Shown: piece by piece, positions 1,700 through 49,279 of the stretch | Position numbering within the stretch: the first letter of the stretch is position 1 | Layout of the letters: each line of letters starts with the position of its first letter | Source of the DNA: Methylobacterium sp. 17Sr1-1 | Lineage (GTDB): Bacteria; Pseudomonadota; Alphaproteobacteria; Rhizobiales; Beijerinckiaceae | DNA: 64,000 nt | Reading direction: 5' to 3' | NCBI RefSeq assembly: GCF_003173775.1 | Contig: NZ_CP029552.1 | Location: 2,704,001-2,768,000 of the forward strand | Position numbers and translations under genes: made by a program | The notes under the pieces: model-generated | Told to the model about the DNA's origin: nothing | Database searches by the model: none | What the model saw: only the letters and a program-made list of their open reading frames with translations

Positions 1700-3469
1700 T
1701 CACCCCGCGAGCGCCAGCGCCCCGTCCTGCAGGAAGCCGCCGCCCCCGGTCACCGTCTCCTCCAGCCCGCGCGCGGCCGTCGCGAGGTTCTCGGCGAAGA
1801 ACCGGGCGAGCGCGATGCGGGCCGGATGCGCCGGGTCGCTCTCGCCTCCTTGCGCCGCCGCATGCGCCGCCAGCGCCGCTTGCGCCAGGCAGGTGCCGCC
1901 TTGCGCGAGGCCGAACAGGCGCAGGTACGGGGTGGCGCCGGCGAGCGCCTCCTCGGGCCGGTTCGAGCCCAGCGCCTTCAGGAGGTAGCTCGTCGCCCGG
2001 TCGAGGGACTCGATCGTCTCGCGCAGGCGCGGGGCGGTGTGGCCGAAGGCGGGCCCGCCCTCCTTCAGCACCCGCTCGGCGACGAGGCGCATCGCGCCGA
2101 TCTGGCGGCGCACCACCGCGCCGTTCTCCAGCGGCAGCTTGCGGGTGACGAGGTCGATCGCCTGGATGCCGTTGGTGCCCTCGTAGATCGCCGCGATGCG
2201 GGCGTCGCGCAGGTGCTGGGCGGCGCCGGTCTCCTCGACGAAGCCCATGCCGCCATGGACCTGGATGCCGAGCGAGGCGACCTCGATGCCGATATCGGTC
2301 GAGAAGGCCTTCGCCACCGGGGTCAGCAGCGAGGCCCGGGCCTGCGCCGCCCGGCGCCCCGCCTCGTCCGGCGCCCGGTGGGCGCGGTCGATCGCCTCGG
2401 CGGTGAGGTAGCAGATGCCGCGGGAAGCGCCCGTCAGCGCCTTCATGGTGAGCAGCATCCGCTGCACGTCGGGATGCTCGATGATCGCGCTGGCGCCCTC
2501 GCCCGCAGCGCTCGCCCGGCCCTGGCGGCGGTCGCGGGCGTAAAGAAGAGCCTGCTGGTAGGCGCGCTCGGCGATGGCGACGCCCTGGAGGCCGACGCCG
2601 AGGCGGGCGTTGTTCATCATCGTGAACATGCAGGCCAGCCCCCGGTTCGGCTCACCGACGAGCCAGCCGATGGCGCCGTCGTAGACCATGGTGCAGGTCG
2701 GCGAGCCGTGGATGCCGAGCTTGTGCTCGATCCCGGCGCATTTCAGCGCGTTGCGCGAGCCGTCCGGCAGCACCTTCGGCACCAGGAACAGCGAGATGCC
2801 GCGGGTGCCGGCCGGCGCGTCGGGGAGCCGGGCGAGCACCAGGTGGACGATGTTGTCGGTGAGGTCGTGCTCGCCCCAGGTGATGTAGATCTTCTCGCCC
2901 GAGATCCGGAAGCTGCCGTCGCCGGCGGGCTCGGCGCGGGTGCGCATCACCGAGAGGTCCGAGCCGGCCTGCGGCTCGGTGAGGTTCATGGTGGCGGTCC
3001 ACTCGCCCGAGACCAGCTTCTCGAGGTAGCGGGCGCGCAACTCCTCGCTGCCGTGCCGGCTCAGCGCCTCGACGCCGCCGGCGGTGAGCAGCGGCCCGAG
3101 GCCGAAGGCCATCGCGGCGGAGTTCCACATCTCGATGCAGGCGGCGTTGAGCAGGATCGGCAGGCCCTGGCCGCCATACTCCACCGGGCCCGGCAGGGCG
3201 TTCCAGCCGCCCTCGGTCCAGGCACGGTAGGCCTCGCGGTAGCCCGGCGGCATCGTCACGACGCCGTCCTTGAGCGGGGTGCCGTGGCGGTCGCCGACCG
3301 TGTTCAACGGCGCCACCACGTCGTTGGCGAAGCGGCCGGCCTCCTCCAGGATGGTGTCGACGAGATCGTCCGAGAGGTCGCCGTGCAGCCCCTCGGCGAT
3401 GGCGCGGTCGAGCCCGGCGACGTGACGGAGGGTGAAGGCCATCTCGGCCACGGGCGCGCGATAGGTCAT
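1700..3469 (-). CDS. Acyl-CoA dehydrogenase with C-terminal extension domain (DmdC-like)
   Basis: FAD-dependent acyl-CoA dehydrogenase of 589 residues, longer than the roughly 380-residue classical enzymes. This is the size of the branch that carries an extra C-terminal domain and includes 3-methylmercaptopropionyl-CoA dehydrogenases. Visible motifs are the substrate/FAD loop MNLTEPQAGSDLS (about 165-178), ISGEKIYITWGEHD, and YEGTNGIQAIDLV (about 435), whose Glu is the expected catalytic base. The start ATG at 3467-3469 is preceded by AGGAG. Alone on its strand, with a repeat element just downstream. The substrate cannot be read from sequence. Confidence 0.93.
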   Translation of the reverse strand: MTYRAPVAEMAFTLRHVAGLDRAIAEGLHGDLSDDLVDTILEEAGRFANDVVAPLNTVGDRHGTPLKDGVVTMPPGYREAYRAWTEGGWNALPGPVEYGGQGLPILLNAACIEMWNSAAMAFGLGPLLTAGGVEALSRHGSEELRARYLEKLVSGEWTATMNLTEPQAGSDLSVMRTRAEPAGDGSFRISGEKIYITWGEHDLTDNIVHLVLARLPDAPAGTRGISLFLVPKVLPDGSRNALKCAGIEHKLGIHGSPTCTMVYDGAIGWLVGEPNRGLACMFTMMNNARLGVGLQGVAIAERAYQQALLYARDRRQGRASAAGEGASAIIEHPDVQRMLLTMKALTGASRGICYLTAEAIDRAHRAPDEAGRRAAQARASLLTPVAKAFSTDIGIEVASLGIQVHGGMGFVEETGAAQHLRDARIAAIYEGTNGIQAIDLVTRKLPLENGAVVRRQIGAMRLVAERVLKEGGPAFGHTAPRLRETIESLDRATSYLLKALGSNRPEEALAGATPYLRLFGLAQGGTCLAQAALAAHAAAQGGESDPAHPARIALARFFAENLATAARGLEETVTGGGGFLQDGALALAG

Positions 3470-3606
3470 CGAGGGCTCCTCCCGACAGAGCTCAAGGCGG
3501 CTTCGCCGGGCGAACCACCCTTTGGATTTGACGTGCGGCGGCCGCCGACGCTACGGCCGGCGGCATGGTGACGGATAGTTTAGACGTGAACGATGATCGC
3601 GGGTCA

Positions 3607-4578
3607 ATGCCGACCCGCCGCCTCGCCGCCGATGCCGCGGGCGTCGCCGAGGCCGGCGCCCTTCTGCGCGCCGGCAAGCTGGTGGCGATCCCCACCGAGA
3701 CCGTCTACGGCCTCGGGGCCGATGCGAGCGATCCGGCGGCGGTGGCGGGCATCTACGCCGCCAAGGAGCGGCCGCGGTTCAACCCGCTGATCGCCCACCT
3801 GCCCGACGTTGCGGCGGCCCGGCGCGAGGGGGTTCTCGGTCCGGACGCCCTGTCGCTGGCCCAGGACTTCTGGCCCGGACCGCTCACCCTGGTGGTGCCG
3901 GTGGCTGTGGGGGGCACCGTCTGCGACCTCGCCCGGGCGGGGCTGTCGAGCGTCGCGCTCCGGGTGCCGGGCAGTGCGCTGGCCCGGGCGGTGCTGGCGG
4001 CGGCGGGCCGTCCGGTGGCGGCGCCCTCGGCCAACCGCTCGGGGCGGGTGAGCCCGACGGAAGTCGATCACGTGCTCGGGGACCTCGACGGCCGGATCGC
4101 CGCGATCCTCGACGGCGGATCCTGCCCGGTCGGGGTCGAATCGACCATCGTCGCCTGCCTCGACGGCCCGCCGGTGCTGCTGCGCCCCGGCGGCGTGCCG
4201 CGGGACGCGATCGAGGCGGTTCTCGGCCGCGAACTGGCCCTGCCGAGCGCGCCGGAAGGGGCTGCGCCGGTCTCGCCGGGGTTGCTGGCCTCGCATTACG
4301 CGCCCCGCGCCGCGGTCCGCCTCGACGCGACGGGGATCCGGCCCGGCGAGGCCGCCCTGCTGTTCGGGCCGGTCCGACCGGACGGGCTCGCCGACGCCGC
4401 GCTCTCGCTCAACCTCAGCCCGGCCGGCGACCTGGCGGAGGCGGCGTCCCACCTCTTCGCCCACCTGCGACGCCTCGACGCCGCCGGCCCGGCGACGATC
4501 GCGGTGGCGCCGATCCCGGAGCACGGGCTGGGCGAGGCGATCCGCGACCGGCTGGCGCGGGCGGCGGCGCCGCGGTGA
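3607..4578 (+). CDS. tsaC: L-threonylcarbamoyladenylate synthase (Sua5/YwlC type)
   Basis: Makes threonylcarbamoyl-AMP from threonine, bicarbonate and ATP for the t6A37 modification of ANN-decoding tRNAs. The 323 residues have two parts. The N-terminal YrdC/TsaC domain shows VAIPTETVYGLGADA, the basic KERPRFNPLIAHL segment, and PSANRSGRVSPT near residue 145. The C-terminal Sua5 domain carries the signature SPGLLASHYAPRA near residue 230. Proteins of this length are two-domain Sua5 rather than single-domain TsaC. A start at 3565 is possible in frame (14 more residues), but 3607 begins at the conserved domain. Divergent from the acyl-CoA dehydrogenase gene. Confidence 0.93.
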   Translation: MPTRRLAADAAGVAEAGALLRAGKLVAIPTETVYGLGADASDPAAVAGIYAAKERPRFNPLIAHLPDVAAARREGVLGPDALSLAQDFWPGPLTLVVPVAVGGTVCDLARAGLSSVALRVPGSALARAVLAAAGRPVAAPSANRSGRVSPTEVDHVLGDLDGRIAAILDGGSCPVGVESTIVACLDGPPVLLRPGGVPRDAIEAVLGRELALPSAPEGAAPVSPGLLASHYAPRAAVRLDATGIRPGEAALLFGPVRPDGLADAALSLNLSPAGDLAEAASHLFAHLRRLDAAGPATIAVAPIPEHGLGEAIRDRLARAAAPR

Positions 4579-4622
4579 GCGGTTGTGCGGCTCGAGAGAA
4601 GCGGCCCACGCCACAACCTACT

Positions 4623-4771
4623 CTCCCACTCGCAACCTCGTCCTGCGGTGCCGGCCGATCGCAGATCGGTTGGCGTCAATGGAGGGCTCCAGGACCCGCC
4701 GAGGAATCTGGAGCCCTCCTTCGAGGCTCACTGCGTTCGCACCTCACGATGAGGTCGCGAGCGGGAGGGAC
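4623..4771. repeat. Dispersed palindromic repeat, family 2, copy 1
   Basis: About 150 bp with nested inverted repeats. The outer arms read CGCAACCTCGTCCTGCGGTGC and, at the other end, GCACCTCACGATGAGGTCGCG. The inner arms are GGAGGGCTCCAGG and CTGGAGCCCTCCTT. A second copy with the same order lies at 42561-42705. Both copies sit just 3' of a plus-strand gene. Confidence 0.8.
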
Positions 4772-4904
4772 GGAGAGCATCGTCCGAAAGGGCTTCGAGG
4801 GGCCGGCCGAACTTTTTTGAAGATCGCGTGGAACCACTCCCGCCGGCCCCGCGTTGAGAGGGCCTAGAAGGTCACCTAAGCCCCCATCGACCTTCCGCCT
4901 CAGA

Positions 4905-4930
4905 AGCCCGGACCTGTCCGGGCTTTTTCT
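4905..4930 (+). terminator. Intrinsic terminator, plus strand
   Basis: Stem AGCCCGGAC (4905-4913), 2-nt loop, GTCCGGGCT (4916-4924), followed by TTTTCTTT. The T-run is only on the plus strand, so it does not serve wrbA, which ends at 4944 on the other strand. Confidence 0.75.
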
Positions 4931-4943
4931 TTGGCAGAACGCC

Positions 4944-5543
4944 TCACCCGGCGAGCTTCGCCGCGATGCCGGCGACGTGGCGTCCCTGGAAGCGGGCGCC
5001 CTCCAGCTCGACCGCGCTCGGCTGGCGGCTGCCGTCGCCGCCCGCGATGGTCGAGGCGCCGTAGGGCGAGTTGCCCATCACCTCGGCGGTGCCGAGCTGG
5101 CCCTGGAAGCTGTAGGGCAGGCCGACCACCACCATGCCCTGATGCAGGAGCACGGTGTGGAAGCTCAGGATCGTCGATTCCTGGCCGCCATGCTGCGAAG
5201 CCGTCGAGGTGAAGACTGACCCGACCTTGCCGACGAGGGCGCCCTTGGCCCACAGGCCGCCGGTCTGGTCGATGAAGTTCTTCATCTGCGACGCCATGTT
5301 GCCGTAGCGGGTCGGCGTGCCGAAGATGATCGCGTCGTAGGACGGCAGTTCGTCGACGGTGGCGATCGGCGCCGCCTGGTCGAGCTTGTAGTGCGACGTC
5401 CGCGCGATCTCCTCCGGCACCAGCTCGGGCACCCGCTTGACCACGACCTCGGCGCCGGCCTCGCGCACGCCCTCGGCCACCGCGTAGGCCATCTGCTCGA
5501 TATGGCCGTAGGTCGAGTAGTAGAGGACCAGAACCTTCGCCAT
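4944..5543 (-). CDS. wrbA: NAD(P)H:quinone oxidoreductase WrbA
   Basis: FMN flavoprotein that reduces quinones by two electrons and protects against redox cycling. At 199 residues it has the family length. The flavodoxin-like start [17 protein letters not shown] binds the FMN phosphate. [25 protein letters not shown] and [12 protein letters not shown] are characteristic WrbA blocks. The ATG at 5541-5543 has AAGGAG in front. It is divergent from a LysR-type regulator across a 114 bp gap with inverted repeats, so control by that regulator is likely but inferred. Confidence 0.96.
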
Positions 5544-5612
5544 CGGGGGATCTCCTTCACGTGTCGGGGGCGGACCATCGCGGATCGCGGGCGCGCCGAA
5601 AATGGCCTATGC

Positions 5613-5640
5613 TGCAAGCCCGCGCTTGCACATGCGCAAG
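5613..5640. promoter_or_regulatory. Candidate LysR operator (overlapping GCAAG/CTTGC palindromes)
   Basis: TGCAAGC-CCGC-GCTTGCA (5613-5630) is a perfect 7-bp-arm palindrome. The right half also pairs with GCAAG at 5636-5640, giving three half-sites. It lies between the divergent wrbA and LysR starts, close to the LysR ATG, as expected for an autoregulated LysR pair. Confidence 0.5.
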
Positions 5641-5657
5641 GTCAGGAGGCCACCCCC

Positions 5658-6575
5658 ATGACCGCCGCCCTCGCCTGGGACGATTTCCGGCTGGTGAAGG
5701 CCATCACCGACCAGCGCGGTCTGACCCAGGCCGCCGAGCGGCTCGGCATCAACCACTCCACCGCCTTCCGGCGCCTCGGCCAGATCGAGGCGGCCCTGCG
5801 TACGCCGCTCTTCGAGCGCCACCGCACCGGCTACGTGCCGACGCCGGCCGCCGAGGAGATGGCGCGCATCGCCGCCCGGATGGAGGAGGAGGTGCTCGCC
5901 TTCACCCGCCGGATCGAGGGCCAGGGCCTGAGCCCCGCCGGCGAACTCCGCATCACCACCGCGGCCTCGCTGCTGACCGGCCTGCTCACCCCGATCCTCG
6001 CGGCGTTCTGCGCCCGCTGCCCGGAGGTGCGCCTCGACGTGGTGGTGTCGGAGCAGGCGCTCAACCTCGCCAAGCGCGACGCCGACGTGGCGCTCCGCGC
6101 CACCAACGACCCGCCCGACACCCTGGTCGGCCGGCGCCTCGCCACCATCGCCTGGGCGCTCTACGGCCGGGCCGACCTCGACCGGACCGTCCCGTTGCCT
6201 GAGCAGCGCTGGGTCTCGCCGGCACCGCGGCTCGGGGCGGCCGCCGTCGCGCGCTACGTCCAGGAGCGCACGACCCCCGAGCGCGTCGTGCTGCGCCTCG
6301 ACACCGTGCAGGGCCTGGCGGATGCGGTGGAGGCCGGAATCGGCATCGGTCCCCTGCCCTGCGTCATCGGCGATCGCCGGCCCGTTCTCGTGCGGCTCTC
6401 CGGGCCGGAGCCCGAGCTCGCCGCCGGACTCTGGCTCCTCACCCATCCGGACCTGCGCCGGGCCGCCCGGGTGCGGGCCTTCCTCGACTTCGTCGGCGAC
6501 GCGATCGCCCGCGAGCGCGACCTGATCGAGGGCCGCGTCCCGCTTCAGCGCACGGAGACGATCTCGACCTCGTGA
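5658..6575 (+). CDS. LysR-family transcriptional regulator
   Basis: 305 residues. The N-terminal winged helix-turn-helix (about residues 1-62) shows LTQAAERLGINHSTAFRRLGQIE followed by TPLFERHRTGYVPT. The substrate-binding domain follows from about residue 90. The start ATG at 5658-5660 has AGGAGG 8 nt upstream. It reads divergently from wrbA, which is its best candidate target. Its last 31 bp overlap the 3' end of the convergent Gre-type gene. The effector is unknown. Confidence 0.9.
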   Translation: MTAALAWDDFRLVKAITDQRGLTQAAERLGINHSTAFRRLGQIEAALRTPLFERHRTGYVPTPAAEEMARIAARMEEEVLAFTRRIEGQGLSPAGELRITTAASLLTGLLTPILAAFCARCPEVRLDVVVSEQALNLAKRDADVALRATNDPPDTLVGRRLATIAWALYGRADLDRTVPLPEQRWVSPAPRLGAAAVARYVQERTTPERVVLRLDTVQGLADAVEAGIGIGPLPCVIGDRRPVLVRLSGPEPELAAGLWLLTHPDLRRAARVRAFLDFVGDAIARERDLIEGRVPLQRTETISTS

Positions 6576-7006
6576 CCCGCCACCTCGACGGTGTCGCCGG
6601 CCTGCTTGCCGGTGAGGGCCCGGGCGAGCGGCGCCACGTAAGCAAGGGAGCCCTTGGCCGGGTCGGCCTCGTCCTCGCCGACGATGTGGAAGGTCTGCTC
6701 GGTGCCGTCCTCGCGCGCGATGGTGACGGTCGAGCCGAAATGGACCGTGTCGCCGGGCGGCTGCTCCACCACCTGGGCCGAGTTGCGCCGGGCGGTCCAG
6801 TAGCGCAGGTCGCGGTTCACCCGCGCCATGTTCGCCTTGTCGTCGGGCGACAGGCCGGCATGCTCGGTGTGCAGCCGGTCCAGCTCCGCGTCGATCAAGG
6901 CGAGGCCCTCCGGCGTGACGAAGTTCGGGTGCGGGGAGACGGGACGGTCGGGGAGATCCTCGAAGGCCTCCCCGCCCTCCTTCTCGCGAACGAAGGCGAT
7001 GCTCAT
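6545..7006 (-). CDS. GreA/GreB-family transcription elongation factor
   Basis: 153 residues with the two-part Gre layout. The N-terminal helical region has NFVTPEGLALIDAELDRL (about 28-45), and a long polar helix holds the RDLRYWTARRNSAQVV segment. The C-terminal FKBP-like domain has VHFGSTVTI, a IVGEDEADP block and LTGKQAGDTVEV near the end. Gre factors stimulate transcript cleavage by stalled RNA polymerase; Rnk-like paralogues share the C-terminal domain, so the exact role is open. ATG at 7004-7006 chosen over an in-frame upstream start because the extra residues have no family character. Confidence 0.85.
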   Translation of the reverse strand: MSIAFVREKEGGEAFEDLPDRPVSPHPNFVTPEGLALIDAELDRLHTEHAGLSPDDKANMARVNRDLRYWTARRNSAQVVEQPPGDTVHFGSTVTIAREDGTEQTFHIVGEDEADPAKGSLAYVAPLARALTGKQAGDTVEVAGHEVEIVSVR

Positions 7007-7180
7007 GAAGCAGGCAATGCGCGGGTCCACGCCAAGGTTCCGCGCGAGGCGCACAACCCGGGTTAGCCCCGGCTATGACCTGTGCCGTGGCCTTCCGACC
7101 CACGCCGCCTTATGGGAGCGGCGCCGCGCCGCAGCGGAAGGCTCCCGCGGCACGGCCACGACCAGTCTCGGAACATCGTC

Positions 7181-8068
7181 ATGGAACGTGCGCAAGCCGC
7201 CGCCCTCGCCAGCGCCGGGGTCGGCCTTCTGGTGCTCGCCCTCAAGTTCGGCGCCTGGTGGATCACCGGGAGCCTCGCGCTCTATTCGGACGCGCTCGAG
7301 AGCATCATCAACGTCGTGGCGGCGATGACCGCCTTCGTGGCCCTGCGCGTCGCCGCCCGGCCCGCCGACCAGGACCACCCCTACGGCCACCACAAGGCCG
7401 AGTACTTCTCGGCGGTGATCGAGGGCGCGCTGATCATCGTCGCCGCGGTGGTGATCCTGCGCGACGCCTACGATGCGATCCAGGCGCCGAAGATGCTCGA
7501 CGCGCCGCTCGCCGGCGTCGCGGTGAACGGCCTCGCCACGGTGATCAACCTCGTCTGGGGGGTGATGCTGGTCCGGCGCGGGCGCGACTGGCGCTCGCCC
7601 GCCCTGGTGGCGGACGGCAAGCACGTGCTGGCCGACGTGTTCACCTCCGGCGGCGTGCTGATCGGGCTGGGACTCGCCACCGCGACCGGCTGGGCGATCC
7701 TCGATCCGGTCATCGCCGTGGTGGTGGCCCTCAACATCCTGTGGTCGGGCGGCGCCATGGTGCGCGACTCGGTGAGCGGCCTGATGGACCAGGCGGCGCC
7801 GGCCGAGATGGTGGGGCAGATCCGCCGGCTGATCTCCGAGCATGGCGAGGGCGCGCTGGAAGCCCACGACGTGCGCACCCGCCACGCCGGCCAGGTCACC
7901 TTCATCGACTTCCACCTCGTGGTGCCGGGCGAGATGACGGTGGCGGAGTCGCACGCCATCTGCGACCGGCTGGAATCGGCGATCGAGGGCGCGGTGGCGG
8001 GCGCCGTGGTGACGATCCACGTCGAGCCCGCCGAGGAGGCCAAGCAGCGCGGTTTACCCGTTATCTGA
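7181..8068 (+). CDS. Cation diffusion facilitator family metal transporter
   Basis: Exports divalent metal (Zn, Co, Fe or Mn type) against protons across the inner membrane. 295 residues. It has the usual six-helix layout, with YSDALESIIN in TM2, the cytoplasmic-facing HPYGHHKAEYFSAVIEG signature, and the HVLADVFTS (HxxxD) site in TM5. A cytoplasmic C-terminal domain contains DFHLVVPGEMTV and ends in TIHVEP. The ATG at 7181 starts directly before TM1; the longer frame from 7082 is low-complexity. The metal cannot be assigned by eye. Confidence 0.92.
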   Translation: MERAQAAALASAGVGLLVLALKFGAWWITGSLALYSDALESIINVVAAMTAFVALRVAARPADQDHPYGHHKAEYFSAVIEGALIIVAAVVILRDAYDAIQAPKMLDAPLAGVAVNGLATVINLVWGVMLVRRGRDWRSPALVADGKHVLADVFTSGGVLIGLGLATATGWAILDPVIAVVVALNILWSGGAMVRDSVSGLMDQAAPAEMVGQIRRLISEHGEGALEAHDVRTRHAGQVTFIDFHLVVPGEMTVAESHAICDRLESAIEGAVAGAVVTIHVEPAEEAKQRGLPVI

Positions 8069-8135
8069 CGCGCCGCCCCTTGCGGCGGGCCGCTCCGCCC
8101 GGTGACAACGCCCGCGCAACGGAGGATGGACGGGC

Positions 8136-8432
8136 GTGACGGGTGCGGACGACGATTACGTGTACGACGAGGCGACGGGCGAGTGGCGCCCCGCCGGCGA
8201 GATGAAGGCCGCCGCGGTCCGCGAGGTGCGCGACGCCTCCGGCACGCTCCTGAGCGACGGCGATTCCGTCACCCTGATCAAGGACCTGAAGGTCAAGGGC
8301 GCCAACCAGACCCTCAAGCAGGGTACGGTGATCCGTTCGATCCGCCTCACCGACAACGACGACGAAATCGATTGCCGCCACGACACGATCAAGGGGCTGG
8401 TGCTGCGCACGGAATTCGTGCGCAAGCGGTGA
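8136..8432 (+). CDS. PhnA-like protein (YjdM C-terminal domain only)
   Basis: 98 residues. The C-terminal two thirds match the PhnA/YjdM domain: LLSDGDSVTLIKDLKVKG, TLKQGTVIRSIRLTD, DDEIDCRHDTIKGLVL and a closing TEFVRKR. Standard PhnA proteins begin with a four-cysteine zinc ribbon; here the equivalent stretch (DYVYDEATGEWRPAGEM) has no cysteine pair, so the ribbon has been lost. The family is named after phosphonate loci, but its biochemical role is not settled. GTG start at 8136 with GGAGG about 10 nt upstream. It follows the metal transporter by 67 bp. Confidence 0.8.
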   Translation: MTGADDDYVYDEATGEWRPAGEMKAAAVREVRDASGTLLSDGDSVTLIKDLKVKGANQTLKQGTVIRSIRLTDNDDEIDCRHDTIKGLVLRTEFVRKR

Positions 8433-8438
8433 GTGGGA

Positions 8439-8598
8439 TCACCCTCCACGTCATCCCGGGGCCGCGCAGCGGAACCCGGGATCCCTAACCGCTGACGCTG
8501 CCGGGCGAGGCGGAGCGCGTTCCGACATCTTCCGAATCGTCAGCGGTTTGGATCCCGGGTTCTTGCCTGCGGCGAGCCCCGGGATGACGCAGGTGTCA
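8439..8598. repeat. Dispersed palindromic repeat, family 1, copy B
   Basis: About 160 bp with inverted arms. CGTCATCCCGGGGCCGCG starts the left arm and CCCCGGGATGACGC closes the right. Both arms carry AACCGCTGAC or its complement at the inner edge. It lies between convergent genes (PhnA-like and aminotransferase). Confidence 0.8.
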
Positions 8599-8608
8599 TG
8601 GGCTGTGC

Positions 8609-9817
8609 CTAGAGTTCGCTCAGCACCGGCACCATCCGCCGCATCGCCTCGGCGAGATCTGCCGCCGAACGGGCGAAGCACAGCCGTAAGAATCCCTCGC
8701 CGCCGGGCCCGAAGGCCGAGCCTGGAGCGAGGCCGACATTCGCCTCGTCGACGAGGCGCTTGGCGAGGCGGACGTCGTCCGGCTCGGCCGGCACGCGCGG
8801 GAAGGCGTAGAAGGCGCCGGGAGGCGCCGGCAGCTCGACGCCCGGCACGGCGCTCAAGGCGTTGCGGACGATCTCGCGCCCGGCCCGGGCCTGCGCCACC
8901 TGCTCGGCCACCAGCGCCTCGCCCTCGCGGATCGCCGTGACGGCGGCGTGCTGGAGGAAGGTGGCGATGCCGGACGTGCCGTAAAGGACGAGCCCGTCGA
9001 CGATCCGGCCGATCGATTCGGGCCCCTCCAGCCAGCCGACCCGCCAGCCGGTCATCGCCCAGTTCTTCGAGAAGGTCTGGACGAACAGCACCCGGTCGCG
9101 GTCCTCGGGCTGCCAGACGTCGCGGATCGACGGCGCCCGGCCTGAGGCCTCGTGGGCTGGATCGAAGCAGAACCGGCCGTAGATCTCGTCGGCGACGATC
9201 CAGAGCCGGTGCTCCCGAGCGATCGCCAGCACCGCCTCGAGATCGGCCCGGGTGGCGACCCAGCCGGTCGGGTTCGCCGGGGTGTTGAGCACGATGGCCC
9301 GGGTGCGCGGGGTGATCGCCGCGGCGATCCGGGCGATGTCGAGGCTCCAGCCGGCTGCCGCGTCGAACTGCATCGGCACGGCTAAGGGCCGCGCGCCCTG
9401 CATCGCGACCGCGCCGAAGAAGTTCGACCAGGTCGGAGTCGGCAGCACCACCTCGTCGCCGGGCTCGGCGGCGATGCGGATCGCGGTGTGGAAGGCGTGC
9501 ATGCCCCCCACCGTCACGAAGAACCGCCCCGGCCCGACGGGATCGCCGTAGAGCCGCGAGACGTACTCCGCCAGGGCCTCGCGCAGGGGCGGTATGCCGA
9601 GCATCCTCGTGTAGAAGGTGGCGCCGTCGCGCAGCGCCCGCTGCGCCGCCTCGCCGATGAAGGCCGGCGTCGGCCGGTCGCCCTCCCCGACCCAGAGCGG
9701 GATCAGCCCGGGCCGCTCGACGCCGTAGGCCACGAGCGCGCCGATGCCGCTCGGCAGCACCCCGGCCGCCTCGCGGCTCACCGGCGGCATCGTGTCGGGC
9801 AGGGGCGGGACGGTCAT
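8609..9817 (-). CDS. Class I/II pyridoxal-phosphate-dependent aminotransferase
   Basis: 402 residues, fold type I. It shows the N-terminal VGEGDRPTPAFI substrate loop, NTPANPTGWVATR (the conserved NPTG segment), VADEIYG (the Asp that pairs with the PLP ring nitrogen) and TFSKNWAMTGWRVGW, whose Lys forms the internal aldimine. The C-terminal RLCFAR contains the carboxylate-binding Arg. Aspartate/aromatic-type aminotransferases look like this; the amino acid cannot be told from sequence. The ATG at 9815-9817 is preferred because the upstream 27 residues of open frame are compositionally unlike the protein. Confidence 0.92.
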   Translation of the reverse strand: MTVPPLPDTMPPVSREAAGVLPSGIGALVAYGVERPGLIPLWVGEGDRPTPAFIGEAAQRALRDGATFYTRMLGIPPLREALAEYVSRLYGDPVGPGRFFVTVGGMHAFHTAIRIAAEPGDEVVLPTPTWSNFFGAVAMQGARPLAVPMQFDAAAGWSLDIARIAAAITPRTRAIVLNTPANPTGWVATRADLEAVLAIAREHRLWIVADEIYGRFCFDPAHEASGRAPSIRDVWQPEDRDRVLFVQTFSKNWAMTGWRVGWLEGPESIGRIVDGLVLYGTSGIATFLQHAAVTAIREGEALVAEQVAQARAGREIVRNALSAVPGVELPAPPGAFYAFPRVPAEPDDVRLAKRLVDEANVGLAPGSAFGPGGEGFLRLCFARSAADLAEAMRRMVPVLSEL

Positions 9818-42732: not shown

Positions 42733-43686
42733 TCAATCCGGCACCGTCACCCCCGTCAGATCCGCCTTTGGCTCCGGAAAGCGCGGGTCCATCAGCTCCA
42801 GCGTGTCGGCGATCAGCCGCGCCACCGCGAGGTTGCGGAACCACTTGCGGTTCGCCGGCACCACGTGCCAGGGCGCGAGCCGCGTGCCGCACAGGGTGAG
42901 CGCGTCCTGGAACGCCGCCTGGTAGGAATCCCAGGCCTGCCGCTCGACGAGGTCGGCGGGGTCGAACTTCCAGTTCTTGGTCGGGTCGGCGAGGCGGCTC
43001 TCCAGCCGCTCCTTCTGCTCCGCCTTCGAGATGTGCAGGAAGATCTTGAGCACGGTCGTGCCCGAGAGCGTGAGCAGGCGCTCGAAATCGTTGATCAGGT
43101 CGTAGCGCGGCCGCCAGACCGCCTCGGGCACCAGCTGCTTGACGCGGACGATGAGCACGTCCTCGTAATGGCTGCGGTTGAACACCCCGATCATGCCGCG
43201 GGCCGGCGCCTCGCGGTGGTAGCGCCACAGGAAGTCGTGGTCGAGCTCCTCCGGGCTCGGCGTCTTGAACGACGAGACCCGGCAGCCCTGCGGGTTCACG
43301 CCCTCGAAGACGTGGCGGATCGTGCCGTCCTTGCCGCCGGTGTCGATGGCCTGCAGCACCACCAGCAGGCTGCGCTTGCGCTCGGCGTAGAGCCGCTCCT
43401 GCAAGGCCTGGATGCGGGCACGCACCGCCGCGAGCTCCTCCTCCGCCGCCGCCTTGCCGTCGGAGGAGCCCGGCGCGTCCGGGTCGATCTCGGCGAGCCG
43501 GCACGGCGCCTCGGGCCGGCACTGCACCACCCCGGGCGGCGGCACCGGCAGGGTCGCGCCGTGCTCGGCGAGGAAGGCGGGGTTCGCGGCCGCCAGCGAC
43601 CCGGCCGCGTTCGCCCAGGCGGCGGAGGACGGGCGCGGATGGCCGGGGAGCGAAACCGGCTTGTCTTTCGGGGTCTTCTTCGACAT
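42733..43686 (-). CDS. ppk2: Polyphosphate kinase 2 family protein
   Basis: 317 residues. PPK2 transfers phosphate between polyphosphate and nucleotides. Walker A-like LQAIDTGGKDGTIRHVF, lid/Walker B region FNRSHYEDVLIVRV, then HISKAEQKERLESR and WHVVPANRKWFRN. The single-domain form with about 90 N-terminal residues of low complexity fits class III (AMP/ADP-phosphorylating) or similar, which I cannot fix by eye. Convergent with the hydrolase across the family-2 repeat. Confidence 0.92.
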   Translation of the reverse strand: MSKKTPKDKPVSLPGHPRPSSAAWANAAGSLAAANPAFLAEHGATLPVPPPGVVQCRPEAPCRLAEIDPDAPGSSDGKAAAEEELAAVRARIQALQERLYAERKRSLLVVLQAIDTGGKDGTIRHVFEGVNPQGCRVSSFKTPSPEELDHDFLWRYHREAPARGMIGVFNRSHYEDVLIVRVKQLVPEAVWRPRYDLINDFERLLTLSGTTVLKIFLHISKAEQKERLESRLADPTKNWKFDPADLVERQAWDSYQAAFQDALTLCGTRLAPWHVVPANRKWFRNLAVARLIADTLELMDPRFPEPKADLTGVTVPD

Positions 43687-43780: not shown

Positions 43781-44374
43781 GTGAGCCGCGCCCCGCTCTA
43801 CTTCGTGCGCCACGGCGAGACCGACTGGAACGCCGAAGGCCGCCTGCAGGGCCAGCGCGACACGCCCCTCAACGCCAAGGGCCACGCCCAGGCGGCGGAG
43901 GCCGGCGAGCGCCTACGGACCTTGCTCGGCGATGCCATCGGCACCCTGCCCTACCTCGCCAGCCCGATGGAGCGCACCCGCCACACGATGGAGGGCCTGC
44001 GCGCGGCGCTCGGCCTCGATCCGGCCGGCTACACGGTCGACCCGCGCCTGCGCGAGATCGGCTTCGGTGCCTGGGAGGGCCTGACCTGGAAGGAGGTCCG
44101 GCGCAGCGATCCCGCCCGCTCCCAGGCGCGGGACCGCGACCGCTGGGGCTTCTGCCCGCCGGGCAAGGGCGCGGAGAGCTACGCCATGGTGGCCGAGCGG
44201 GTGCGCCCGCTCCTCGACGCCCTCGACCGGCCGGCGGTCATCGTGGCGCATGGCGGCGTCGCCCGCGCCGTCATGGTGACGCTGGGCGCGGCGAACAGCG
44301 AGGAGGCGCCCCACCTGGAGATTCTCCAGGGCCGGATCCTGGTCTTCGAGGGCGGCGCCCGGCGCTGGGTCTGA
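43781..44374 (+). CDS. Histidine phosphatase family protein (phosphoglycerate-mutase-like)
   Basis: 197 residues. Catalytic YFVRHGETDWN (RHG), the paired basic residues ASPMERTRHTMEG, acid/base region REIGFGAWEGLTW, and VIVAHGGVARAVM with the second catalytic His. GTG start at 43781 begins at the core of the fold; GAGG lies about 10 nt upstream. Substrate not readable; members act on phosphoglycerate, sugar phosphates or nucleotide phosphates. Confidence 0.9.
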   Translation: MSRAPLYFVRHGETDWNAEGRLQGQRDTPLNAKGHAQAAEAGERLRTLLGDAIGTLPYLASPMERTRHTMEGLRAALGLDPAGYTVDPRLREIGFGAWEGLTWKEVRRSDPARSQARDRDRWGFCPPGKGAESYAMVAERVRPLLDALDRPAVIVAHGGVARAVMVTLGAANSEEAPHLEILQGRILVFEGGARRWV

Positions 44375-44570
44375 GCGGTCCGGACACGACGCCCGGGCGG
44401 TGCCCGAGCCCGCGCCGGATGACGCCGCGTTTTGTGCCCGACCGTGCCTTGAACCGGCCCCGGTTCTCGTCCACCTCCCGCGGGCCCGAGATCGGGCCGA
44501 AGTCAGCGCCGGAGGCCGGTTCCGGTCGGCGCCTTGAAGCTCAACGGCCCGCCCGGGCCAGCGGAGTCGC

Positions 44571-47500
44571 TTGATGAACCACACCGCCGGGACCGTCCGC
44601 ACGCCCAGCCCCGGGACGCGCCCGCCGGCCGTCCCGCCCGCAGGCGCGGCGGTTTTGCGCGGCCCCGTCCGGCCGGACCTCGTCCGCGACGAGGTGCTGG
44701 CCGAGGTGTTTCGCGAGACCGCCCGCGCCCGCCCCGAGCACACGGCGCTGATCGACGCGGCGAGCGGCGGCGACGCCGCCTCGCGCACCCGCCTGTCCTA
44801 CGCCGAGGTCGACCGGCGCTCCGACGCGATCGCCTCGGGCCTCGCGGCGCGGGGCATCGGGCCCGGCGACGTGGTGGGCCTGTGGATGGCGCGCTCGCCC
44901 GACCTCCTGGTGGCACAGATCGGCATCACCAAGGCCGGCGCCGCCTGGCTGCCCTTCGACGCCGAGGCGCCGTCCGACCGCGTCGCAATCTGCCTGAAGG
45001 ATGCCGACGCCAAGGCGCTGGTGACCTCCTCGGCGCTCAAGGACAAGGCGCCGCCCGAGTCCTGCCCGGCCCTCACCCCGGACGAGGTCGCCGCAGGGGC
45101 GAGCGGCCCGGCGCCGGACCTGCGCGCCGCCGGGCTGACGCCTGAGCACCCCGCCTACCTGATCTACACCTCGGGCTCGACCGGCGTGCCGAAGGGCATC
45201 GTCATCAGCCACCGCAACATCTGCCACTTCCTGCGCTCGGCCAACGACCTCTACGGCGTGACCGGCGACGACGTGGTGTTCCAGGGCGCCTCGGTCGCCT
45301 TCGATCTCTCGATGGAGGAGATCTGGGTTCCGTATCTCGCCGGCGCGACGCTGTTCGTGGCGAGCCCGGCCCAGATGGGCGATGCCGAGGCGCTGCCCGA
45401 CATCCTGATCGAGGCCGGCATCACCGTCCTCGACACGGTGCCGACCCTCCTCGGGCTGATGACGAAGGACGTGCCGCGCCTGCGTCTGATCCTGCTCGGC
45501 GGCGAGGCCCTCCCCGAGCCGCTGATCGCCCGTTGGGCGACGCCCTCGCGAAAGCTGTTCAACACCTACGGGCCGACCGAGGCGACCGTGGTGGCGACCG
45601 CGGCCGAGATGAAGCCGGGCGACCCCGTCACCATCGGCGGGCCGATCGCCAACTACACCGCCTACATCGCCGACGAGGGGCTGAACCTCGTCGGGCCCGG
45701 CGTGCAGGGCGAACTCCTGATCGGCGGCCCCGGCATCGCCCAGGGCTACCTCGCCCGGCCGGAGCTGACGGCGGAGAAGTTCATCGCCAACCCCTATGGC
45801 GGCGACGGGTCCGACCCGGTGCTCTATCGCTCCGGCGACGCGGTCTCGCTGGATCACGCCGGCCGCATCGTCTTCCACGGCCGCATCGACGACCAGGTGA
45901 AGGTCCGCGGCTTCCGGGTCGAGCTCGGCGAGATCGAGGCCCGGATCCGGGCGCAGGCCGGGATTTCCTCCGCCGCGGTGGTGCTGCGCCAGGACGACGG
46001 CGTCGACCGGCTCGTTGCCTTCGTGGTGCCCGAGCGCGGGGCCGAGTTCGACCGCGGGCGCCTGCGCGCGGCGCTCGCCGAGACGATGCCGCCCTACATG
46101 ATCCCGGCGCATTTCGAGGTGGTGGAGAGTCTCCCCGTCCTCGCCGCCTCCGGCAAGGTCGACCGCAAGGCCCTGCGCGCTCGCCCGCTCGCGGTGGTCG
46201 AGCCCTCGGGCGAGCAGGAGGAGCCCCGCGACGAGACCGAGACCGCCCTTCTCGCTGCGGCGCAGAAGGTGTTCGGCAACCAGCCGATCCCGTTCGAGGC
46301 CGATTTCTTCGGCGATCTCGGCGGCCACTCGCTGCTCGCCGCCCGCTTCGTCTCGGCGGTGCGCGAGGTGCCGGCCTTGGCGGCGATCACGCTCCAGGAC
46401 GTCTATAACGGCCGCACGCTGCGGGCGATGGCCGAGACGCTGATCGAGCGCACCGGCGGGGCGGGAGCGGCCGCCGCAACCCACGACCTGTCCTTCGCGC
46501 CGCCGCCGCTCATGCGGCGCTTCCTGTGCGGCCTCGCGCAGGCGGTGGTGCTGCCCTTCGTGATCGCGCTCGCGACCGCGCAGTGGCTCGGCATCTTCGT
46601 CACCTACCTGCTGATCACCGGCGGCGAACTCGGCTTCTTCGCCGAGATGGCGGTGCTGCTGCTGGTCTATATCGGCCTCAACGCCGCGACGGCCTTGATC
46701 GCCATCGCGATGAAGTGGCTGGTGCTCGGCCGCACGAAGCCCGGCCGCTATCCCCTCTGGGGCACCTACTATTTCCGCTGGTGGCTGACCCAGCGCCTGA
46801 CGCCGCTCGTCCACGTGAAGTGGCTCCAGGGCTCGCCGATGATCCGCATCTACCTGCGGCTCCTCGGCGCCAAGATCGGCGAGGACGCGCTCATCTCCGA
46901 CATCGAGATCGGCGCGCCGGACCTCATCAGCATCGGGCGGGGCGCCTCGCTGGGCGGCCGGCTGACGCTCGCCAATGCCGAGGTGGTCGGCAACGAGCTC
47001 GTCATCGGCCCCGTCTTCATCGGCGACGACGTCGCCATCGGCACCTCCTGCGTCGTCGGCTACGACACCCGGATCGAAGACCACGCCGAACTCGCCGACC
47101 TGACCACCGTGCCGTCCGGGACCCTGGTCGGCCGCGCCGAGGCCTGGGACGGCTCGCCCGGCCGCAAGGTCGGCCTGGTCGACGTCTCGCACCTGCATCC
47201 GGTGCCGGAGGCCTCGCCCCGACGTCGCGCCGTGTTCTTCCTGATCTACGCGCTGCTCCTCGCCGCGATCCCGGCGGTGGGCCTGCTGCCGATCTTCCCG
47301 GCCTTCTACATCTTCGACCAGATCAGCGACACGCTGGCGACGCTCACCGACGTCGATTACCACGTCTACCTGCCGCTCCTGACCTGGCCGACCGCGATGC
47401 TGATGACCGCCGGCACGGTCGGGCTGATCGCCGGCATCCGCTGGGCGGTGCTGCCGCGCCTGCGCGAGGGCAGCTACTCGATCCACAGCGGCACCTATCT

Positions 47501-48656
47501 GCGCAAATGGGCGGTGGCCCTCGCCGCCGAGGTGACGCTCGAGACCCTCTCCTCGCTCTTCGCCACGGTCTACATGCGGGCCTGGTACCGGCTGATGGGC
47601 GCCGGGATGGGCCAGGGCGCCGAGATCTCGACGAACCTCGCCGGCCGCTACGACCTCGCCGAGGTCGGTCCGCGCAACTTCATCGCCGACGAGGTGGTGT
47701 ATGGCGAGGAGGAGGTGCGCCGCGGCGTGATGGAGCTGGCGCCGGTCCGCACCGGTGCCCGGGTCTTCGTCGGCAACGACGCGGTGGTGCCGCCGGGCGC
47801 GATCATCCCGGACGACGTGCTGATCGGCATCAAGTCGAAGCCGCCGGCCAACGACCGCATGGCGCCGGGCGAGACCTGGTTCGGCTCGCCGCCGATCAAG
47901 CTGCCGGTCCGCCAGAAGGTCGATCTCGGCCAGGCCCAGACCTTCGAGCCGGGCCTGTGGCCGCGGCTGCGGCGCGGCATCTTCGAGGCGTTCACCTCGT
48001 CGTTCTCGCCGATGCTGTTCATCACCTTCGCCATCCTGGCGATCGACTTCATCTTCTACCCGGCGATCCTGGCCGGCGACTGGGCGGGTCTCGCCGTCAG
48101 CTTCGTCGCCACCAGCGTGGTGATCGCGGTGCTGCAGACGCTGGTGGTGATCGGCGTCAAGTGGCTCCTGATGGGCCGCTACGAGCCCGGCATGCACCCG
48201 ATGTGGTCGTGGTGGGCGATGCGCACGGAAGCGGTGGCGGTGATGTACTGGGGCTTGGCCGGCAAGGTGCTGCTCGAGCACCTGATGGGCACGCCGTTCC
48301 TGCCCTGGGTGCTGCGCCTGTTCGGCACCCGCACCGGCGAGGGCGTGTGCATGCTCGCCACCGACATCACCGAGTTCGACTGCGTCACGATCGGCGACTT
48401 CGCCTCGGTCAACCGGATGTCGGCGCTCCAGACCCACCTCTACGAGGACCGGGTGATGAAGGTCGGCCGGGTCGAGGTCGGCCGCGGCGTCAGCGTCGGC
48501 GCCTTCGCGACGGTGCTCTACGACACCAAGGTCGGCGACTACGCCCAGCTGCGCCCGCTCACCATCGTGATGAAGGGCGAGACCATTCCGGCGAATTCCC
48601 GCTGGGAGGGCGCGCCGGCGGTGCCGGTGGTGCACCAGGCGGTGGCCGCGGAGTAG
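44571..48656 (+). CDS. Membrane-anchored single-module NRPS of the Pls/PosA type
   Basis: 1361 residues. Adenylation domain (about 45-545): LIYTSGSTGVPKG, FDLSMEEIW, NTYGPTEATV, YRSGDAVSL, GRIDDQVKVRGFRVE, ASGKVDRKAL. Thiolation domain (about 555-625) with phosphopantetheine Ser587 in DLGGHSLLAA. From about 640 the chain repeats three times a pair of transmembrane helices followed by a hexapeptide-repeat segment (about 757-870, 1005-1095, 1243-1350). This A-T-[TM-C]x3 order is that of epsilon-poly-L-lysine synthetase (Pls), which has no thioesterase and no separate condensation domain. By-eye specificity residues are D-L-E-D-L-G-T-V-V-K; acidic residues at positions 239 and 278 often go with basic amino acids (inference). 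Likely makes a short homopolymer or amide at the membrane. Confidence 0.9.
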   Translation: MMNHTAGTVRTPSPGTRPPAVPPAGAAVLRGPVRPDLVRDEVLAEVFRETARARPEHTALIDAASGGDAASRTRLSYAEVDRRSDAIASGLAARGIGPGDVVGLWMARSPDLLVAQIGITKAGAAWLPFDAEAPSDRVAICLKDADAKALVTSSALKDKAPPESCPALTPDEVAAGASGPAPDLRAAGLTPEHPAYLIYTSGSTGVPKGIVISHRNICHFLRSANDLYGVTGDDVVFQGASVAFDLSMEEIWVPYLAGATLFVASPAQMGDAEALPDILIEAGITVLDTVPTLLGLMTKDVPRLRLILLGGEALPEPLIARWATPSRKLFNTYGPTEATVVATAAEMKPGDPVTIGGPIANYTAYIADEGLNLVGPGVQGELLIGGPGIAQGYLARPELTAEKFIANPYGGDGSDPVLYRSGDAVSLDHAGRIVFHGRIDDQVKVRGFRVELGEIEARIRAQAGISSAAVVLRQDDGVDRLVAFVVPERGAEFDRGRLRAALAETMPPYMIPAHFEVVESLPVLAASGKVDRKALRARPLAVVEPSGEQEEPRDETETALLAAAQKVFGNQPIPFEADFFGDLGGHSLLAARFVSAVREVPALAAITLQDVYNGRTLRAMAETLIERTGGAGAAAATHDLSFAPPPLMRRFLCGLAQAVVLPFVIALATAQWLGIFVTYLLITGGELGFFAEMAVLLLVYIGLNAATALIAIAMKWLVLGRTKPGRYPLWGTYYFRWWLTQRLTPLVHVKWLQGSPMIRIYLRLLGAKIGEDALISDIEIGAPDLISIGRGASLGGRLTLANAEVVGNELVIGPVFIGDDVAIGTSCVVGYDTRIEDHAELADLTTVPSGTLVGRAEAWDGSPGRKVGLVDVSHLHPVPEASPRRRAVFFLIYALLLAAIPAVGLLPIFPAFYIFDQISDTLATLTDVDYHVYLPLLTWPTAMLMTAGTVGLIAGIRWAVLPRLREGSYSIHSGTYLRKWAVALAAEVTLETLSSLFATVYMRAWYRLMGAGMGQGAEISTNLAGRYDLAEVGPRNFIADEVVYGEEEVRRGVMELAPVRTGARVFVGNDAVVPPGAIIPDDVLIGIKSKPPANDRMAPGETWFGSPPIKLPVRQKVDLGQAQTFEPGLWPRLRRGIFEAFTSSFSPMLFITFAILAIDFIFYPAILAGDWAGLAVSFVATSVVIAVLQTLVVIGVKWLLMGRYEPGMHPMWSWWAMRTEAVAVMYWGLAGKVLLEHLMGTPFLPWVLRLFGTRTGEGVCMLATDITEFDCVTIGDFASVNRMSALQTHLYEDRVMKVGRVEVGRGVSVGAFATVLYDTKVGDYAQLRPLTIVMKGETIPANSRWEGAPAVPVVHQAVAAE

Positions 48657-48708
48657 TAGGGGTGGCAGGACTGTCGGAGGATGTTCACTCCCATGATCCT
48701 GCCACGCT

Positions 48709-48850
48709 CCGCGTCATCTCTGGGCCGCGAAGCGGAGCCCGGGATCCAGAAACTCAAGTGAGAGCGAATGAGGCGGAACGCTGCCCGCCTTCATCTGACA
48801 GATCCGCGGCTCTGGATCCCGGGCTCCGCTTCGCGGCCCCGGGATGACCC
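48709..48850. repeat. Dispersed palindromic repeat, family 1, copy D
   Basis: Two inverted arms: GCGTCATCTCTGGGCCGCG on the left, GCGGCCCCGGGATGACC on the right, separated by a centre with GCGGAACGC also seen in copies A and B. Located between the convergent NRPS and DUF3775 genes; nothing else in the 233 bp gap. Confidence 0.8.
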
Positions 48851-48889
48851 TGCGGGTTTCAGATCCGCGAGAGCGGATCGATCAGTTGG

Positions 48890-49279
48890 TTACACCTCCG
48901 AGTTCAGTCCCAACGCCGCCAGCCCCTCGTCGAGCAGATCGCCCACGTTCGGGATCCCGAGCAGGTAGTCGGCGGTGCGGGTGCCGGCGGCCTCGCGCTC
49001 GCGGGCGAGGCGGACCGCGTCGGGGAATTCCTCCGGCTCCATGTCGCCGCGGCCGACGAACAGGATCGCCACCAATTCGGCCCGCTCGTCGTCGTTGAGG
49101 CCGGCGATCATCTCGCGCAATTCCTCCTCGGTCGCGTCGTCGGTGCCGTCGACCAGCACGTCGCGGGCGCCGTCGTCGATCGGGTTCGAGCCGGAATCGG
49201 GATCGCTCAACCCCTCCTTCACGTCGAGGGCCCGGGCCCGCAGGATGAACTCACTGACCTTGTCAACGGCGATGTCCAT
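48890..49279 (-). CDS. DUF3775 domain protein
   Basis: 129 residues. The C-terminal half has ERAELVAILFVGRGDMEPEEFPDAVRLARER followed by TADYLLGIPNVGDLLDEGL, which is the DUF3775 pattern. Acidic and probably cytosolic. Start at 49277-49279 with GGAGG 8 nt before. Convergent with the NRPS; function unknown. (Read the two motif strings as separate consecutive segments.). Confidence 0.82.
   Translation of the reverse strand: MDIAVDKVSEFILRARALDVKEGLSDPDSGSNPIDDGARDVLVDGTDDATEEELREMIAGLNDDERAELVAILFVGRGDMEPEEFPDAVRLAREREAAGTRTADYLLGIPNVGDLLDEGLAALGLNSEV

Follow-up and report, generated by a model that had tools for sequence, protein, structure and literature searches.

The 64,000-nucleotide stretch of Methylobacterium sp. 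17Sr1-1 DNA analysed here (the window; contig NZ_CP029552.1, positions 2,704,001 to 2,768,000, of a single-contig, 6.54 Mb genome) contains a Pls/PosA-type open reading frame (ORF) at 44571-48656 on the plus strand, with no stop across 1361 codons. A first-pass annotation, made from the letters of the window, had described this ORF as a stand-alone membrane non-ribosomal peptide synthetase (NRPS), and its ORF, coordinates and strand are all correct. The ATG at 44574 is a likelier translation start than the listed TTG at 44571 because GGAG, probably the ribosome-binding site, is located at 44563-44566; from that ATG the gene (pls) would extend over 44574-48656 and encode 1360 residues, compared with 1361 from the TTG. 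The protein consists of an adenylation (A) domain (residues about 47-537; 44709-46181), a thiolation or carrier (T) domain (residues 560-624; 46248-46442) in which Ser587 (codon 46329-46331) is the attachment site for the phosphopantetheine (Ppant) arm, and a terminal domain (residues 656-1350; 46536-48620). Among the matches listed, the best pls segments are 92-95% identical in M. tarhaniae, M. platani, M. indicum, M. frigidaeris and others.

A Pfam scan of the protein at E 0.001 returned AMP-binding (276.5 bits), AMP-binding_C, PP-binding (26.9 bits against a cut-off of 20.8) and Hexapep, and returned no thioesterase or condensation domain, as the first-pass annotation had claimed; PF00668, the condensation domain, gave zero matches across the host genome. 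Ser587, located within GGHSLLAAR, is intact, all 87 aligned representatives have Ser at this position, and the A-domain motifs that were looked up are present, with no loss of catalytic residues. TIGR02353, an equivalog-domain model for the Pls/PosA terminal domain, matched residues 656-1350 with 560.8 bits, well past its cut-off of 423.1; at E 0.001 it matched eight places in the host genome and exceeded the cut-off only at pls. TIGR01733 matched residues 76-470 with 406.6 bits (cut-off 317.4). These two were the only models above their own cut-offs among the NCBIfam matches listed (25 of 110), and assignment to another carboxylate-activating family was therefore rejected, the best homology being to Pls/PosA. 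The top single-A-domain chain in the PDB among the matches listed (60 of 222) was 8G95 (387 bits), which is PosA according to its authors. By sequence criteria, the gene is confirmed as encoding a stand-alone membrane NRPS of the Pls/PosA family, which makes cationic homo-poly-amino acids (CHPA; also non-alpha poly-amino acids, NAPAA), and the interpretation in the first-pass annotation is supported. It is an unexceptional representative of an enzyme family already known, and ordinary for Methylobacterium.

PosA, the delta-poly-L-ornithine synthetase of Acinetobacter baumannii, has the same A-T-terminal order and the terminal domain (PMC10522769), and the best segment of an A. baumannii homologue is 41.8% identical to the window protein. 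Pls, the epsilon-poly-L-lysine synthetase of Streptomyces albulus, likewise shares the domain order and terminal-domain family, and the poly-diaminopropionate (PDAP) and poly-diaminobutyrate (PDAB) synthetases belong to the same family (PMC10522769). PosA is distinguished from the window protein by its code, host clade and locus.

The specificity code was read from alignments of 111 and then 151 sequences. The window code, DLEDLGTVVK, is formed by residues 245, 246, 249, 288, 308, 310, 332, 340, 341 and 529, so that the code proposed in the first-pass annotation was borne out by the alignment columns. As a control, the same columns in an A. baumannii homologue gave DMEHNGTVSK, which is the published PosA code (PMC10522769), and window and PosA residue numbers differ by a constant offset of 28. 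Asp245 and Glu249 (code positions 1 and 3) correspond to PosA Asp217 and Glu221, whose alanine substitutions left activity undetectable (PMC10522769), and Thr332, the equivalent of PosA Thr304, is also kept. Leu246 occupies code position 2, where PosA has Met218, a position described as a size gate that is Ala in lysine enzymes, Pls included, and Phe in diaminopropionate (DAP) and diaminobutyrate (DAB) enzymes (PMC10522769); Leu fits none of the three rules, the S. albulus protein itself having been compared in part. Asp288 replaces PosA His260, and Val341 replaces Ser313, whose loss carries a 183-fold cost in PosA (PMC10522769). Because Asp245 and Glu249 are kept while Leu246, Asp288 and Val341 replace Met218, His260 and Ser313, the A domain most likely adenylates a basic alpha-amino acid, probably a diamino acid of ornithine to lysine size.

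The code sample was biased toward the window, 80 of its loci being the best 80 of 244 by similarity to it. With the window included, 123 of 150 readable codes began with DLED, namely 76 DLEDLGTVVK, 37 DLEDIGSVVK, 8 DLEDIGTVVK and 2 DLEDVGSVVK, and all 123 have Asp at position 4 and Val at position 9. The code type is already published for Methylobacterium: 'D L E D I G T V T/V/I K' is described as a unique signature found in Archaea, Rhizobia, Methylobacterium and others (PMC10522769), and 47 NAPAA clusters have been reported from Arthrobacter, Methylobacterium and Microbacterium (PMC9964534). The exact code is published for another genus, in a NAPAA cluster of Bosea sp. NBC_00550 (DLedLgTVvK) and in seven other complete Bosea genomes, and the excerpt of that report names no product (PMC10508160).

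Three loci outside the DLED set are of separate interest. L156, from the same class as the window, carries the code DSECYGGVTK, that of a Bdellovibrionales enzyme with modest activity on L-arginine (PMC10522769), and its terminal domain scores 367.9 bits, under the TIGR02353 cut-off. L166, a plasmid of Streptomyces sp. NBC_01527, contains a Pls/PosA gene at 2910-9629 with code DFECLSAVTK; the genes that come after it are annotated as a diaminobutyrate transaminase and an aspartate kinase, a neighbourhood that suggests a poly-diaminobutyrate pathway. L139, left out of the code count and the trees, has a 3474-residue stop-free frame of which the last part alone matches Pls/PosA; a larger multi-module NRPS was rejected, since the first ~400 A-domain residues lie outside that frame, and a frameshift or assembly error is possible.

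Trees were built from the terminal domain alone and drawn with the root at the midpoint. A FastTree tree was made from 87 representatives sharing less than 85% identity, of which 64 are DLED-coded; in it, the DLED rows form one side of a branch with support 100 and adjoin five DMEHN-coded rows, including the A. baumannii protein, with support 99; several non-DLED rows carried a long-branch warning. An IQ-TREE mixture-model tree of 33 rows (quick search, Shimodaira-Hasegawa-like approximate likelihood-ratio support, SH-aLRT, only), which included a hand-picked 11 of the 64 DLED rows and omitted the long-branched L156, gave the same DLED and DMEHN grouping (100 and 99), and its remaining DMEH rows fell at two more places nearby. 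Two Streptomyces proteins with the lysine-type code DAESIGTVVK were far from the window gene in the trees, and DFE-coded rows did not group with it; the PosA code type was the nearest group. What is added here to the published signature is that the DLED-coded proteins are one terminal-domain group adjoining PosA-type proteins. Codes of the A domain thus track the terminal domain, and a PosA-like ancestor is the probable source of the DLED code.

These relationships bear on L-ornithine as the preferred substrate. It is the top single candidate, at something short of an even chance: DLED adjoins the DMEHN-coded PosA-type proteins in the trees, and Asp245, Glu249 and Thr332 are kept. Leu is, in addition, close in size to Met, which counts for ornithine at code position 2. 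Set against this are the second acid that Asp288 provides where PosA has His260, and the exchange of Ser313 for Val341; the invariance of Asp at position 4 and Val at position 9 among the DLED codes of the biased sample hints at a different, or differently held, substrate.

The first-pass annotation had described three membrane/hexapeptide repeats after the A-T module, an arrangement that structural modelling supports. An AlphaFold model of residues 545-1361, built with 43 sequences (mean predicted local distance difference test score, pLDDT, 87.4; predicted template-modelling score, pTM, 0.88), places long helices at three places with a beta-helix repeat after each, so that the terminal domain is predicted to alternate membrane-helix pairs with three left-handed beta-helix repeats. 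A plain hydropathy scan detected strong segments around 647-719 and 1140-1202, just one strong segment in the middle repeat (885-916), and one false segment inside the A domain. The top solved Foldseek matches were gamma-carbonic-anhydrase-like proteins and hexapeptide acetyltransferases (E 3.1e-5 and weaker), with match lengths mostly of 114-207 columns; the 50 VIA-align rows listed were mostly carrier-domain matches. The modelled fold and the Foldseek matches agree with a published pseudo-threefold model of the terminal domain (PMC10522769). The literature search, whose cryo-EM part ran from 2022 on, found no paper on a terminal-domain structure among the papers listed.

Among the 87 representatives, the terminal domain has 15 charged, amide or His positions that at least 95% of rows retain: two in repeat 1, four in repeat 2 and nine in repeat 3. 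Identical in all 87 are Q657, R736, D1040, R1135, Q1287, H1289 and E1337. From this conservation, repeat 3 around His1289, within QTHLYEDRVMK in the window protein, is the likeliest candidate for the polymerising site. The putative cluster (residues 1268-1337; 48372-48581) would comprise E1268, Q1287, H1289, E1292, K1297, K1335 and E1337. Sections 13 and 14 of PMC10522769 assign no residues to the polymerising active site. Mapping His1289 onto the catalytic His of a solved beta-helix enzyme was attempted and not achieved, the structural matches giving no residue ranges.

Loading of the T domain would call for a phosphopantetheinyl transferase (PPTase). PF01648 matched the host genome at two places, an Sfp-type PPTase with an AASDHPPT_N domain at C1:1835935 and a second that looks AcpS-like by eye. 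With one divergent query and counting pls of any code, a PPTase match was present in 98 of 139 pls-positive and 15 of 60 pls-negative genomes of the host's bacterial family (Fisher P 3e-9, uncorrected for relatedness). At some other loci the two genes are neighbours: in Microvirga, pls is immediately preceded by the end of a PPTase frame, and an annotated 4'-phosphopantetheinyl transferase overlaps the end of pls by 4 bases in Sphingomonas parapaucimobilis (L162, 8118-8675) and Shinella (L165, 6941-7615), where the overlap is likely to reflect translational coupling.

Pls/PosA-family genes are common in the host's bacterial family. A search with TIGR02353 at E 1e-60, which counts Pls/PosA genes of any code, matched 139 of 199 family genomes, 136 of them over the cut-off, and all 10 same-genus genomes among those listed, a listing that covers 20 of the 60 genomes lacking a match; the family count is slightly low, as one genome scored negative (L219) has a pls cut at a contig end. 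From the 40 family genomes fetched, 38 DLED codes and two others (L198, L199) were read, and additional codes and second copies are seen at L157 and L158. Wider draws, both of which include members of the host's family, yielded matches in 9 of 289 genomes from the class and 27 of 398 from the phylum. That the gene is so widely kept at a chromosomal locus is a weak hint of a role in the envelope or at the surface, no less than of an antibiotic one.

Taken together, we consider it probable that pls encodes a Pls/PosA synthetase that builds a short isopeptide-linked polycation from a basic amino acid. In this scheme, the A domain would adenylate a basic alpha-amino acid, the Sfp-type PPTase encoded elsewhere would add the Ppant arm, and the aminoacyl group would be loaded on Ser587. 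The terminal domain, acting as one pseudo-trimeric catalyst, would then repeatedly transfer the carboxyl onto the next residue's side-chain amine, leaving a short isopeptide-linked polycation at the membrane. By analogy with PosA and Pls, we infer that the product would be a homopolymer rather than a simple amide, the two outcomes named in the first-pass annotation. Several observations weigh against this synthetase reading. Four code positions are unlike those of PosA (Leu for Met218, Asp for His260, Leu for Asn280 and Val for Ser313), and the literature covered describes no product for any DLED-coded protein. In repeat 3, the two DAES-coded Streptomyces rows have H, R and R in place of E1292, K1297 and K1335, reading QTHLFHDR(I/V)MR, and MRGE for MKGE, and six DFEA-coded rows vary further (QAHSLEEGAFK or similar). 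The PPTase match, made with one divergent query, is missing in 41 of the 139 pls-positive family genomes, and in the host genome the PPTase gene is not adjacent to pls.

A more specific version, in which the DLED clade uses a monomer new to the class, selects it with the aid of Asp288, makes a retained surface polymer rather than an antibiotic and polymerises at repeat 3 around His1289, is tentative, and we would regard it as possible rather than probable. It is unlikely that no polymer is made and that one activated basic amino acid is instead moved to a small amine, a lipid or an envelope glycan. The repeats do resemble beta-helix acyltransferases and gamma-carbonic-anhydrase-like proteins, pls often occupies a stable place in the chromosome instead of an antibiotic-like cluster, and the four Pfam-scanned neighbours were a phosphatase, PPK2, DUF3775 and an EI24/CysZ-family membrane protein, no systematic exporter search having been made. 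However, the terminal domain passes the same equivalog-domain model as Pls and PosA, Q1287, H1289 and E1337 are common to PosA-type, DFE-coded and DAES-coded rows, and the A. baumannii enzyme gave chains of 7-12 units in vitro (PMC10522769). That the gene is decayed or not expressed is very improbable: a simple consensus scan found no promoter-like site, but all 1361 codons are open, the orthologues of the closest species listed are 92-95% identical in their best segments, and the conserved polar residues are present.

For the synthetase reading, the DLED group offers a test case, with one protein group and one code type yielding predictions for both the substrate pocket and the polymerising active site. 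The group is common in bacteria that are easy to grow. If the product turned out to be a conserved surface polycation, the picture of such polymers would move away from antibiotics and towards ordinary components of the envelope.

The upstream neighbour of pls is a conserved, same-strand histidine phosphatase (PF00300; 43775-44374, start codon not settled) whose ORF ends 199 nt before the ATG at 44574. Gene order was counted at loci with enough sequence, with gene names checked on two loci. A same-strand histidine phosphatase lies at most 4.5 kb upstream at 52 of 56 Methylobacterium-group loci, 36 of 60 other DLED loci and 0 of 27 non-DLED loci. The corresponding counts were 25/55, 34/52 and 0/19 for fabI upstream and 0/54, 33/54 and 0/27 for aroC downstream, and many DLED loci have the order fabI-phosphatase-pls-aroC; within the window, neither fabI nor aroC gave a match. 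Twenty of the 60 pls-negative family genomes were searched for the phosphatase, which was found in 15, one of these being the genome with the contig-cut pls. In 10 of the remaining 14, aroC lies at most 1.5 kb downstream of the phosphatase (directly adjacent in six), and in the other four the fetched flank contains no aroC. The phosphatase-aroC order in genomes without pls indicates that in many members pls was gained into, or lost from, an older chromosomal gene order, which is not universal, as the phosphatase is not next door at 24 of the 60 other DLED loci. A functional phosphatase-pls operon, to which the adjacency of the two genes had pointed, was largely discounted for the same reason, and that pls is monocistronic, as the first-pass annotation had it, is plausible. 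Consensus scans, which say little in this genus, detected neither a sigma-70-like promoter nor a terminator in 44300-44650 or 48600-48900.

Beside the phosphatase and pls, a PPK2-family polyphosphate kinase is encoded on the minus strand at 42733-43686. The PPK2 match is absent from L085-L090, L092-L106 and L139-L168 and is present at many Methylobacterium loci.

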